This document shows, one piece after another, positions 12,717-53,628 of a stretch of DNA of 64,000 nt. Within the stretch, counting starts at the first letter, position 1; every line of letters starts with the position of its first letter. The notes beneath the pieces were generated by a model. The model saw only the letters and a list, made by a program, of their open reading frames with translations. It did no database searches and was not told the origin of the DNA. Origin of the DNA: Melghiribacillus thermohalophilus (GTDB taxonomy: Bacteria > Bacillota > Bacilli > Bacillales > Alkalibacillaceae); the NCBI RefSeq assembly GCF_004342905.1, contig NZ_SMAN01000011.1:1-64000 (forward strand), read 5' to 3'. The position numbers and the translations under genes were made by a program.

Positions 12717-12784
12717 ATGCACATTTGTTTCCATAACTAATATGGTGTAGTAATATAAATGATAAACGATGATGGGGAAAAGTA

Positions 12785-13010
12785 AAAAGAGACCATCCTT
12801 ACACAGAGAGAATCACCTCTGGCTGAAAGTGATTCTAAGGACCTCTTTTGAACATGCACCCCGGAGTCCCTTATTGAATGCACAGTAGGTAAGGGCGGGT
12901 GACTTCCGTTACCGGTTATTTGAGTTTGGGGAACCGATTTATGTTTTGTTCCCAAACAGAGTGGAACCGCGCACAAAGCGTCTCTGTCATATGGCAGAGG
13001 CGCTTTTTTG
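12785..13010 (+). ncRNA. Cysteine T-box leader of cysE-cysS
   Basis: This untranslated leader has the parts of a T-box riboswitch. Stem I includes the perfect AGAATCAC/GTGATTCT helix, and a specifier loop has TGC (Cys codon) at 12855-12857 in GAACATGCACC. The T-box sequence AGAGTGGAACCGCG lies at 12958-12971. A terminator follows: AAAGCGTCTCTG (12975-12986) with CAGAGGCGCTTT (12995-13006) and six T at 13004-13009. Uncharged tRNA-Cys should stabilise the antiterminator and switch on cysE and cysS. Two smaller hairpins follow (TTCGGC/GCCGAA at 13041-13055 and AACGA/TCGTT at 13064-13080). The promoter, probably near 12725-12756, is not clear. Confidence 0.93.
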
Positions 13011-20154: not shown

Positions 20155-20305
20155 TGGCAAAATGAATACATGCATTATACCGTAGACAGTAGGTGCGGTT
20201 CATTCGCTTAATTTCCTACCGAGGTATACGAGTCGGAAATCAACTGCATGGTTTAGCTGTGCAGATTTACGATACGTGCCTCCATGTCTATGGAGGCATT
20301 TTTTT
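20155..20305 (+). ncRNA. L10 leader RNA of rplJ-rplL
   Basis: The leader before rplJ matches the Bacillota L10 leader: a branched fold that includes CTGCATGGTTTAGCTGTGCAG (as a CTGCA/TGCAG hairpin near 20244-20263). It ends in a strong terminator, TGCCTCCAT (20277-20285) with ATGGAGGCA (20290-20298), and seven T at 20299-20305. L10, bound with L7/L12, is known to bind such leaders and promote premature termination, which matches L10-L12 synthesis to ribosome need. Confidence 0.88.
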
Positions 20306-20352
20306 AGATTTTCGCACCTGCGGTATAGTGACGGGAACAGGAGGTGGAATGG

Positions 20353-21410: not shown

Positions 21411-22013
21411 ATGGATCACTACTATTCAAAAGACCCGGCATCCAAAAGTGAACCGGTAACCTGGAAGGAACATCTCCGGGAGAAAACATTCATATTTACT
21501 TCGGATCATGGTGTTTTTTCTAAAGGAAAAGTTGATTTTGGTTCCAGAACCTTAATTGAATATTTTGAAGAGCCTGAGGTAGAAGGTCCGATTGTGGATG
21601 TGGGCTGTGGTTACGGTCCTATTGGACTTTCCCTGGCACATCGTTACCCATCCCGTCATGTATACATGATAGATGTGAATCAACGGGCCCTGGAGCTTGC
21701 GAGAAAGAATGCAGCGGATAATCATATAACAAATGTTACTGTCCGGGAAAGTGATCTGCTGGATGGTGTTTCGGAACAGAAGTTTGCTGCCATCGTTTCA
21801 AATCCCCCGGTTCGTGCCGGAAAAAATATTGTTCACCGTCTATTTGAAGACAGTTTTCATGCACTGCTCACAGGCGGGGAACTCTGGATCGTTCTTCAAA
21901 AAAAACAGGGAGCACCTTCCGCGAAGAAAAAACTTGAGGAAATCTTTGGCCATGCCGATATAAGAAAAAGAAACAAAGGATATTACATTATTGTTGCAAA
22001 AAAGTTTGACTGA
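21411..22013 (+). CDS. RsmC-like class I SAM-dependent methyltransferase
   Basis: This 200-residue protein is a Rossmann-fold methyltransferase of the RsmC type, matching B. subtilis YbxB. SAM motif I is VDVGCGYGPIG (about 61-71), the acidic loop is MIDVNQRALELARKNA, and the catalytic motif is SNPPVRAGK, as in enzymes methylating the exocyclic N2 of guanine in 16S rRNA. It is half the length of E. coli RsmC, lacking its N-terminal pseudo-domain, which is normal in Bacillota. The exact target is inferred. It lies between rplL and rpoB; its 3-prime end overlaps the probable rpoB promoter. Confidence 0.88.
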   Translation: MDHYYSKDPASKSEPVTWKEHLREKTFIFTSDHGVFSKGKVDFGSRTLIEYFEEPEVEGPIVDVGCGYGPIGLSLAHRYPSRHVYMIDVNQRALELARKNAADNHITNVTVRESDLLDGVSEQKFAAIVSNPPVRAGKNIVHRLFEDSFHALLTGGELWIVLQKKQGAPSAKKKLEEIFGHADIRKRNKGYYIIVAKKFD

Positions 22014-22034
22014 ACGTTTTAGCTATGCTAATAT
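22006..22034 (+). promoter_or_regulatory. Probable rpoB promoter with extended -10
   Basis: TTGACT (22006-22011), overlapping the stop of the methyltransferase gene, 17 bp, then TAATAT (22029-22034) preceded by TGC, an extended -10. Transcription from here gives a leader of about 420 nt before rpoB. Another -10-like TATAAT at 22116-22121 lacks a convincing -35. Confidence 0.65.
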
Positions 22035-22150
22035 TGAAAAATGCCAACATATAAAAACTCTTGTCAAGGGGAATTTTTCATGGCATGAGATGTATATTTC
22101 ACCTCTGTTATGGGATATAATGGTAAAACTGAGAATAAACAATCATAAGC

Positions 22151-22180
22151 GGTTTTCATAGCAAAACCCTTTTTCTTTTT
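22151..22180 (+). terminator. Weak terminator-like hairpin early in the rpoB leader
   Basis: GGTTTT (22151-22156) pairs with AAAACC (22163-22168) around CATAGC, followed by CTTTTTCTTTTT. It may end transcripts from rplJ-rplL-methyltransferase or be the first control point in the rpoB leader. Confidence 0.6.
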
Positions 22181-22214
22181 GTCTAACGTTAGAGAGAATG
22201 AAAATAGGATAGGC

Positions 22215-22431
22215 CATTCGTTTTATATACGATTTTCTGAAGCAGCGATCCCGTCGTTTAAATGGACTGATCTACTGGCTTTGACCGACCGATCTCTCCC
22301 ATGTATTTTGCGGAATTTTCGGCCGGTTAAGTGATATAAAACGAATGTACCATATAACATGCTTATGTGGGCAGAGGAGGCCTGCATAATCTATGTTCGG
22401 CATGCACTTTTTTGCCGGACCCTTTGTTTTT
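22215..22431 (+). ncRNA. Structured rpoB leader RNA ending in a terminator-like hairpin (candidate)
   Basis: A perfect 14-bp helix joins CATTCGTTTTATAT (22215-22228) to ATATAAAACGAATG (22334-22347). Directly inside its right arm, TTGACCGACCGA (22281-22292) pairs with TCGGCCGGTTAA (22319-22330) with one mismatch and one G-T pair. A small AGCGA/TCGTT hairpin can form between, giving a multibranched domain. A second hairpin follows: TTATGTGGGC (22363-22372) with GCCTGCATAA (22380-22389), loop AGAGGAG. Last comes GTTCGGCA (22395-22402) with TGCCGGAC (22413-22420) and a T-rich tail to 22431, an intrinsic-terminator shape 30 nt before rpoB. The function is inferred as attenuation of rpoBC. Confidence 0.6.
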
Positions 22432-22460
22432 AAATTATGTTTGTTTGAGGGGTGAATCAG

Positions 22461-25400
22461 TTGACAGGTCAACTAGTTCAATATGGTCGACACCGCCAGC
22501 GAAGAAGTTACGCGCGTATCAGTGAAGTTCTGGAATTGCCAAACTTAATCGAAATTCAAACCGCTTCATATGAATGGTTCCTCGAAGAAGGTTTGAGAGA
22601 GATGTTTCAGGACATTTCCCCGATCGAAGACTTCACCGGAAACCTTTCATTAGAATTTGTAGATTATAGTCTGGGTGAACCGAAGTACCCGGTGGACGAA
22701 GCAAAAGAGCGAGACGTCACGTATTCAGCTCCTCTTCGTGTAAAGGTACGACTGCTGAATAAAGAAACAGGGGAAGTAAAAGAGCAGGAAGTGTTCATGG
22801 GGGATTTTCCTCTGATGACAGACACAGGCACCTTTATTATTAATGGTGCAGAACGTGTCATCGTATCTCAGCTCGTCCGTTCTCCAAGTGTTTATTACAG
22901 TGAAAAGATGGATAAAAACGGCAAAAAAGGATATACGGCTACCGTCATTCCAAACCGTGGAGCATGGCTTGAGTTTGAGACTGATGCAAAAGATGTGGTA
23001 CATGTACGAATTGACCGAACAAGAAAATTGCCAATCACAGTGCTGCTCCGTGCCCTGGGATTTAGCACAGATGAAGATATAATCGAACTGCTCGGAGACA
23101 ACCTGTTTTTGAGAAATACGCTAGAAAAAGACAATACAGAAAACAGCGAAAAAGCGCTTCTGGAAATTTATGAACGTCTGCGTCCGGGAGAACCGCCCAC
23201 TGTTGAAAATGCAAAGAGCCTGCTGATCTCCCGTTTCTTTGACCCTAAACGATATGACCTTGCTCACGTGGGACGTTATAAGATCAACAAAAAACTCCAT
23301 ATTAAAAATCGTATATTTAACCAGATCCTTGCGGAAAACATTGTTGATGCGGAAACTGGCGAAGTGATTGCCCGTGAAGGTGACCGAATGGATCGCCGTT
23401 TGCTGAATAGAATATTACCTTACCTGGAAAATGAGGAAAACAGGCTGGGTGAGCAAATTCTAGAGCCTCATGAAGGGGTTTTGGATGACCCGATTAAGAT
23501 TCAGTCCATTAAAATTTACGACCCAACTGATCCCGAAGGCGAAAAAACGCTGAATGTGATCAGCAATGCCCAGGTAGAAGATGGTGTAAAAAACATTACA
23601 CCGGCCGACATCATTGCTTCAATCAGCTATTTCTTTAACTTGTTACATGAAGTAGGAGATACTGACGATATTGACCATCTGGGAAATCGTCGCCTTCGTT
23701 CGGTTGGTGAATTATTGCAGAACCAGTTCCGGATTGGTTTATCGAGAATGGAACGTGTGGTCCGTGAACGAATGTCGATTCAGGATACGAGTTCCATTAC
23801 ACCTCAGCAATTGATCAATATTCGTCCAGTCATCGCATCGATCAAGGAATTTTTCGGCAGTTCTCAGCTGTCTCAGTTTATGGACCAGACGAATCCGCTG
23901 GCAGAATTAACCCATAAACGGAGGCTGTCAGCCCTTGGACCGGGCGGTCTTACCAGGGAACGCGCAGGATTTGAAGTCCGTGACGTTCACTATTCGCATT
24001 ATGGCCGTATGTGTCCGATTGAGACGCCTGAGGGTCCAAACATTGGCTTGATTAATTCCCTATCTTCATATGCGAAAGTCAATAAGTTTGGATTTATCGA
24101 AACACCTTATCGCAGAATAGATCCTGAAACGGGAAAGGTAACGGCGCAAATCGACTACCTGACAGCTGACGAAGAAGACAATTATGTCGTCGCCCAGGCG
24201 AATGCACGTCTCGATGACGAGGGTAACTTTATTGATGAGGAAGTCATTGCCCGTTTCCGGGGGGAAAACATTGTGGTTCCCCGGGACCGTGTAGACTATA
24301 TGGATGTTTCCCCTAAACAGGTCGTTTCAGCTGCAACAGCCTGTATCCCTTTCCTGGAAAACGACGACTCCAACCGGGCTTTAATGGGCGCAAACATGCA
24401 GCGTCAGGCAGTGCCTCTCATGCAGCCGGAAGCACCAATTGTGGGAACGGGAATGGAGTATGTTTCAGGGAAAGACTCTGGTGCAGCTGTCATCTGTAAA
24501 CATGATGGAATTGTTGAACGGGTTGAGGCTAAAGAAGTTCTCGTTCGCCGTGTTTCTGAAGTGGACGGAAAAGAAGTAAAGGGAGATTTAGACCGCTATC
24601 GCCTGCAAAAATTCGTTCGTTCAAACCAGGGTACATGTTACAATCAGCGTCCGATTGTGGAAAAGGGTGAACGGGTGAAGAAAGGTGATATTCTTGCAGA
24701 CGGGCCGTCTATGGAACAGGGAGAACTTGCCCTTGGCCGTAACGTGCTTGTTGCCTTCATGACCTGGGATGGATACAACTTTGAGGACGCAATTATCATG
24801 AGTGAGCGTCTTGTAAAAGATGATGTATATACCTCTATTCATATTGAGGAGTTTGAATCTGAAGCCCGTGACACGAAATTGGGACCGGAGGAAATCACGC
24901 GTGATATTCCAAACGTTGGGGAAGACGCCTTAAAAAACCTCGATGAACGAGGAATTGTAAGAATCGGTGCAGAAGTTTCCGATGGGGACCTGCTTGTGGG
25001 TAAGGTTACGCCTAAAGGTGTAACCGAACTGACTGCCGAAGAGCGCCTGCTTCATGCCATTTTTGGTGAAAAAGCCCGTGAAGTCCGTGACACATCTTTA
25101 CGAGTCCCCCATGGCGGAGGCGGCATTGTTCTCGATGTAAAAGTATTTAAGCGGGAAGATGGAGATGAACTGCCTCCTGGCGTCAACCAGCTTGTGCGTG
25201 TCTACATTGTTCAGAAGCGGAAGATTTCTGAAGGGGATAAGATGGCAGGACGACATGGAAACAAAGGGGTTATCTCAAAAATTTTGCCTGAAGAAGATAT
25301 GCCGTTCTTGCCGGATGGCACCCCGGTGGATATCATGTTGAACCCCCTAGGTGTACCATCCCGGATGAACATCGGTCAGGTGCTTGAGCTTCATCTCGGT

Positions 25401-26009
25401 ATGGCAGCCAGACAGCTCGGCATTCATGTGGCTTCGCCGGTATTTGACGGTGCTGATGAGGAAGACGTCTGGGAAACCCTGGATGAAGCAGGTTTGCCAC
25501 GGGACGCAAAAACCGTTCTGTACGATGGCCGTACAGGCGAACCTTTTGATAATCGAGTATCAGTCGGTGTTATGTACATGCTCAAATTGGCTCACATGGT
25601 CGATGATAAGCTACATGCACGCTCAACCGGACCATACTCACTCGTCACTCAGCAGCCGCTGGGCGGTAAAGCTCAGTTTGGTGGCCAGCGTTTTGGCGAG
25701 ATGGAGGTGTGGGCCCTTGAGGCATATGGTGCAGCATATACCTTGCAGGAGTTATTAACCGTTAAATCCGATGATGTTGTCGGCCGTGTGAAAACGTATG
25801 AAGCAATTGTTAAAGGTGAAAACGTACCAGAGCCTGGAGTGCCGGAGTCATTTAAGGTATTAATCAAAGAGCTTCAAAGCCTTGGAATGGATGTAAAAAT
25901 TCTTTCCAGTGATGAGACAGAGATCGAAATGCGCGATATCGAAGAAGACGATCAGCCTGCAGAACAGCTGGATGTCCAGGTGGATAGCAAAAAAAGTGTC
26001 ACGAAGTAA
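22461..26009 (+). CDS. rpoB: DNA-directed RNA polymerase subunit beta
   Basis: RpoB (1182 residues) forms half of the RNA polymerase active cleft. All conserved regions are present, including the rifampicin-binding cluster around residues 463-500 ([20 protein letters not shown], then [11 protein letters not shown]) with the usual sensitive-type residues, and the C-terminal [19 protein letters not shown] chose TTG 22461 because the protein then begins [20 protein letters not shown] as in B. subtilis, and GAGGGGTGA (22447-22455) is well spaced; GTG 22452 lies inside that site. It is preceded by a long structured leader and followed by rpoC after 40 bp. Confidence 0.98.
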
Positions 26010-34699: not shown

Positions 34700-35202
<503 letters not shown>

Positions 35203-53498: not shown

Positions 53499-53525
53499 AC
53501 AAGTGAAATGAAATCGTACGCGAAT

Positions 53526-53600
53526 ACCCTCATATAATTTTGGGAATATGGCCCAAGAGTCTCTACCCGGTTACCGTAAATAACCGGACTATGGGGGAGA
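53526..53600 (+). ncRNA. Purine riboswitch aptamer, guanine class
   Basis: The aptamer has P1 CCCTCATA with TATGGGGG, P2 TTGGG/CCCAA with the AATATGG loop, and P3 CCGGTTA/TAACCGG with loop CCGTAAA. Joining region TCTCTACC is conserved. The specificity base, equivalent to position 74, is C at 53589 (GACTATG), so guanine or hypoxanthine rather than adenine should bind. Ligand binding would fold the downstream terminators and stop pur transcription. Confidence 0.95.
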
Positions 53601-53628
53601 AGTTGTCTGTAGTTACCCGGACTTCAAT

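Follow-up and report, generated by a model that had tools for sequence, protein, structure and literature searches.

In E. coli, rplJL and rpoBC form one operon, within which a partial terminator, the rplL-rpoB attenuator, precedes rpoB, and RNase III cuts before rpoB. The only named RNA at an rpoB leader is the Lacto-rpoB motif (RF01709) of the Lactobacillales (Weinberg et al. 2010, PMC2864571). In B. subtilis, binding of L10(L12)4 promotes termination before rplJL (PMC4538822), and NusG pausing in the trp leader has been linked to the motif TTNTTT (PMC8060035); the main text of the latter paper does not mention rpoB. In the main texts of the literature searched, no Bacillales rpoB leader is discussed and no control at such a leader is described.

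The DNA analysed here, called the window, is a stretch of 64,000 nucleotides from Melghiribacillus thermohalophilus (GTDB lineage Bacteria; Bacillota; Bacilli; Bacillales; Alkalibacillaceae), positions 1-64,000 of the forward strand of contig NZ_SMAN01000011.1 in assembly GCF_004342905.1. An earlier note on this DNA had proposed the gap before rpoB as a candidate for an undescribed regulatory RNA that controls RNA polymerase synthesis by attenuation. The rpoB gene of the window is set apart from the E. coli attenuator, by description and not by sequence, in having its own promoter and a conserved multi-hairpin leader.

RESULTS

We compared the leader with the RNAs known from neighbouring systems. 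Similarly to Lacto-rpoB, its closest known counterpart, it is a conserved structured RNA located in the rpoB leader, after a promoter (P1 and rpoB in Table 1). In contrast to the window RNA, which consists of three hairpins (H1-H2-H3), Lacto-rpoB is one hairpin of 58 positions with the conserved loop UGAAAUAUUGUCCA and lacks this architecture. No match to Lacto-rpoB was found in the window (gathering score 40 bits; E<=5) or in the genome it comes from, and the loop UGAAAUAUUGUCCA is absent from the sequence of the window leader. Among 151 genomes of the class, the motif matched two genera only, both outside Bacillales. In 6/6 above-threshold loci inspected, all of family f72 (L311-L316), it was directly followed by a strong terminator with the U-tract CTTTTTGTGC, resembling the element T1 described below. 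The motif as defined by Rfam ends in the 5' arm of this terminator, AGCAGTTAAATC..GATTTAGCTGCT-CTTTTTGTGC, which gives Lacto-rpoB the appearance of an attenuator's sensor part. The comparison points to a common plan for Lacto-rpoB and the Bacillales leaders, namely promoter, lineage-specific RNA, terminator and rpoB, and it is possible that the window RNA works like Lacto-rpoB.

A neighbouring leader with attenuation, the L10 leader (RF00557), lies before rplJ in the window. It differs from the rpoB leader in its structure and its gene, and it matches 20162-20313 only. The leaders known to Rfam in the window are a T-box (12760-12988), this L10 leader, an S10-Clostridia leader (34776-34880) and a purine riboswitch (53510-53611). 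The rpoB leader itself matched no known family at the gathering threshold or at E<=5, apart from chance-level matches to unrelated families.

The leader occupies the gap between the stop of a ybxB-like gene and rpoB, and contains, in this order, P1, a 5' segment, T1, a palindrome, H1, H2, H3/T2 and the rpoB ribosome-binding site (Table 1). The start of rpoB is most likely TTG 22461 (MTGQLVQYG...) rather than GTG 22452. A promoter with an extended -10 element had been described in the earlier note, and a consensus scan recovered it; relatives carry the same TTGAC..TATAAT-AAAATGCC layout at the end of ybxB. The RNA is predicted to start near 22041. The entire leader (22006-22480) folds at z -3.4, with 0/100 shuffles as stable; taken alone, the 5' part of the window leader does not fold stably (z -0.4). 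The ribosome-binding site of rpoB lies outside the conserved stems. A short sequence in the 5' part, TTCACCTCT (22098-22106), is complementary to the ribosome-binding-site region AGGGGTGAA (22448-22456); this complement is found in the window's genus and is not general among the relatives inspected.

Table 1. Features in and around the rpoB leader of the window
Feature	Position	Strand	Remarks
ybxB-like gene	21411-22013	+	3' end overlapped by P1
Promoter P1	22006-22034	+	TTGACT, 17 nt, TAATAT, extended -10 (TG); consensus scan
5' leader part	22041-22148	+	starts AATGCCAA, contains TTGTCAAG; kept in relatives across Bacilli
T1	22151-22183	+	GGTTTT-CATAGC-AAAACC hairpin, then CTTTTTCTTTTTGTC (contains TTNTTT)
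Palindrome after T1	22182-22193	+	TCTAACGTTAGA; window's genus, one other genus of its family (L006), families f36 and f6
H1, 5' arm	22215-22228	+	CATTCGTTTTATAT; identical in the genus's other species
H1-loop insert	22229-22333	+	105 nt; particular to the window's genus
H1, 3' arm	22334-22347	+	ATATAAAACGAATG; unchanged in the genus's other species
H2 hairpin	22363-22389	+	10 bp, loop AGAGGAG; stem covaries in relatives
H3/T2	22395-22431	+	GTTCGGCA..TGCCGGAC hairpin, tail CCTTTGTTTTT; likely intrinsic terminator
rpoB ribosome-binding site	22447-22455	+	GAGGGGTGA; almost invariant across the order
rpoB	22461-26009	+	start most likely TTG 22461

The long-range 14-bp helix, the hairpin with an AGAGGAG loop and the terminator-shaped hairpin before rpoB, all picked out in the earlier note, are present and make up a single three-hairpin RNA, H1-H2-H3/T2. 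The arms of H1 form a 14-bp perfect inverted repeat, which by our own rough estimate (455^2/2/4^14) would arise by chance in about 4 in 10,000 such stretches. The segment 22213-22349 folds at z -3.4, and 0/200 shuffles were equally stable. The inner 12-bp helix that had also been claimed was not recovered: the 105-nt loop of H1 holds only imperfect branched pairing, with no inverted repeat >=8. This loop is an insert in the window's genus at the place where relatives have a short hairpin, and it is only 42% identical to its counterpart in the genus's other species, versus 87-97% for neighbouring segments. A repeat or mobile origin of the insert was rejected, as there is no second copy in the genome.

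We then assembled sequences upstream of rpoB from Bacillales as well as other Bacilli, of which 167 distinct ones were scanned. A subset of the relatives showed the same three hairpins in the same order: H1 with CATTCG..CGAATG, a linker around TATATA, H2 with GCTTG..CAAGC in many variants, and H3 with GTTCGGCATG..TGYCGRAC. H1 of these relatives measures only about 8-10 bp. A covariance model (R1) was built from an alignment of 23 relatives from which the window's genus was left out. Its match in the window (22213-22429) scored 31.9 bits with E 1.3e-4, the next matches within the 64 kb having E 0.84 and 1.2. We define the family of H1-H2-H3 rpoB leader RNAs by a match to the model together with a position directly upstream of rpoB, and the window RNA shows both.

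Covariation in relatives, the absence of which had been set beforehand, alongside a hit to a known Rfam family, as grounds for dropping the proposal, is strong in H1 and H2. In a structure-blind alignment, 87% of the cells were paired, compared to 35-40% with slid partners, and compensatory changes were observed in H1 and H2, with 16/27 pairs changed on both sides, a number that 0/500 shuffles reached. The model-fitted alignment of 44 matches, which leans to structure, had 90% of its cells paired and 18/27 pairs changed on both sides. A structure-blind covariation ranking, supportive and limited by about 12 effective sequences, placed the H1 pair 9-21 first of 3684 and 5/27 structure pairs in the top 50. 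By this comparison of sequences, H1 and H2 are under structural selection. H3 evolves in another manner, with a nearly invariant 5' arm and a G-C to G-U exchange on its 3' side. Its 5' arm is conserved in sequence beyond what pairing needs, which suggests that it may also be read as sequence.

The RNA was found in 44/397 Bacillales genomes, a lower bound since the strict scan filters missed the window's own genus, and 43 of these 44 genomes contained exactly one match. The matches span four families in the survey, one of them containing Pontibacillus (Pontibacillus litoralis). In all 30 loci retrieved, rpoB lies directly downstream, and 22/30 have the same spacing of 25-26 nt.

The T2 hairpin proper (22395-22420) has 8 bp, with -11.7 kcal/mol and z -3.2, and its tail runs to 22431. 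It shows the G+C-rich hairpin followed by a U-tract that characterizes intrinsic terminators, and T2 is likely to be one. The tail is offset by 2 nt from the hairpin and interrupted by a G, as would be expected of a partial terminator. Only 29 nt separate the end of T2 from the rpoB start codon, which leaves no room for a promoter between them, so transcripts of rpoB must pass T2. A run of >=4 T follows H3 in 26/32 relatives. In two of the three relatives from family f13 (L105 and L125), H3 is without a U-tract, and H3 may therefore do more than, or other than, terminate. A long inverted repeat, AACACTTAC..GTAAGTGT, is additionally present between H3 and rpoB in all three f13 relatives (L105, L125, L140). 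A conserved RNA antiterminator for T2 was also considered and rejected: the upstream segment that pairs best with the H3 arm, often the 5' AAUGCC, did no better than in shuffled leaders.

A second terminator-like element, T1, which is absent from the earlier note, is more widely conserved. Its stem is weak in the window (-4 kcal/mol). On the non-template strand, TTTTTCTTTTTG (22170-22181), which contains the TTNTTT motif of NusG pausing, follows the hairpin (22151-22168). With this weak hairpin and a T-rich stretch containing TTNTTT, T1 resembles the sites in B. subtilis where pausing or termination depends on NusA/NusG (PMC8060035). We scanned GTDB species genomes with the T1 21-mer AAACCCTTTTTCTTTTTGTCT, and at least 119 contigs matched. 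In 118/119 contigs among the matches listed, the rpoB start lies 59-337 nt past the first base of the 21-mer; the remaining contig had no rpoB start within the stored stretch. The matches listed from GTDB genomes (L192-L310, rpoB leaders of Bacilli) place the 21-base sequence almost only before rpoB.

Across most Bacillales, T1 is retained ahead of rpoB, and in most Bacillaceae it lies about 70 nt from the rpoB start. The stem has a different sequence in the other orders of Bacilli, but the equivalent place is often taken by a hairpin with TTTTCTTTTTG or TTTTATTTTTG after it. Judged by this distribution and by its linkage to rpoB in 118 of the 119 contigs listed, T1 is an old, Bacilli-wide element specific to rpoB leaders. 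Covariation in T1 was not above controls in a MAFFT alignment that mixed two stem registers, and it is conservation alone that we claim. T1 cannot be recognised in most of the family to which the window belongs, yet H1-H2-H3 is kept there. In many Bacillaceae (L025, L048, L051, L087, L227, L273 and others), a hairpin with variable stems opens at the GTCT behind the T1 U-tract, its other end being AGAC or a similar sequence.

DISCUSSION

The candidate put forward in the earlier note is borne out to the extent that H1-H2-H3 is a real and conserved structured rpoB leader, apparently undescribed, of the kind of cis-acting leader or attenuator RNAs, with strong covariation in H1 and H2 and no Rfam match. 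The proposed attenuation control of rpoB fits the anatomy of the leader and is probable; no conserved antiterminator was found.

In the reading that we favour, rpoB is controlled by transcription attenuation at both T1 and T2 and a trans-acting factor acts at H1-H2-H3; we give it a probability of roughly 0.55. Attenuation is favoured because two terminator-like elements lie between the promoter and a ribosome-binding site that is outside the conserved stems, and a trans-acting factor because there is no conserved RNA antiterminator. We infer that T1 and T2 terminate, that this process is under regulation and that the signal is a protein. Transcription from P1 would yield the 5' leader of the rpoB mRNA, and the polymerase would have to pass T1 and then T2 before rpoB. 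With the help of NusA and NusG, T1 would cause pausing or partial termination. T2 would act as a partial terminator set by the trans-acting factor, most likely a protein recognising the conserved GUUCGGCAUG arm along with H1-H2. The two sites would jointly scale RNA polymerase synthesis by attenuation. Given its weak stem, interrupted U-tract and TTNTTT, T1 may tie rpoB to the capacity of the polymerase or of elongation factors.

Nothing need be sensed if both T1 and T2 terminate partially and constitutively and so do no more than fix the ratio of upstream to rpoB transcription. No antiterminator or ligand signature was found, and a fixed step-down from rplJL to rpoB would be enough for dosage; still, a plain terminator needs neither structurally selected H1 and H2 nor a near-invariant H3 5' arm, and we consider this explanation unlikely. 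We are similarly doubtful that H1-H2-H3 is an element of mRNA processing or stability, such as a site for a double-strand RNase or a fold that stabilises the transcript, with no role for termination. The long perfect helix of H1 in the window would suit such an element, as would the two f13 relatives whose H3 has no U-tract, and the RNase III cut in E. coli offers a precedent. However, the T run that follows H3 in most relatives is unneeded for processing alone, and the short H1 of relatives also speaks against it.

Two other roles appear far less probable. Control of T2 by a translated leader peptide would involve a 20-codon ORF (22393-22455), the stop of which overlaps the rpoB ribosome-binding site. 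It has AGAGGAGG upstream, in the H2 loop, and its frame is kept in the genus's other species, but AGAGGAGG is missing there, and no ATG precedes GTTCGG in most relatives. We rejected this peptide, as its start codon and ribosome-binding site are not kept in relatives. It is also very improbable that the T2-terminated RNA is a small RNA acting in trans, for which the place next to rpoB would be secondary. The H3 5' arm, more conserved than pairing requires, could serve as a seed; the near-constant spacing to rpoB argues against this role, as does the lack of copies elsewhere in the genomes searched.

Attenuation at T1 and T2 with a factor at H1-H2-H3 can tentatively be extended to the whole class. 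Bacilli might gauge the capacity of RNA polymerase, or of NusA/NusG, by the passage through T1, so that the enzyme would be regulating itself by way of its own leader, and some Bacillales families would add a second, factor-controlled terminator in the form of H1-H2-H3; we regard this extension as possible, if rather doubtful. If true, this reading of T1 and H1-H2-H3 would mean that Bacilli in general control RNA polymerase synthesis by attenuation. How RNA polymerase synthesis is set is a basic question, and the exact conserved sites of this leader make it directly testable.
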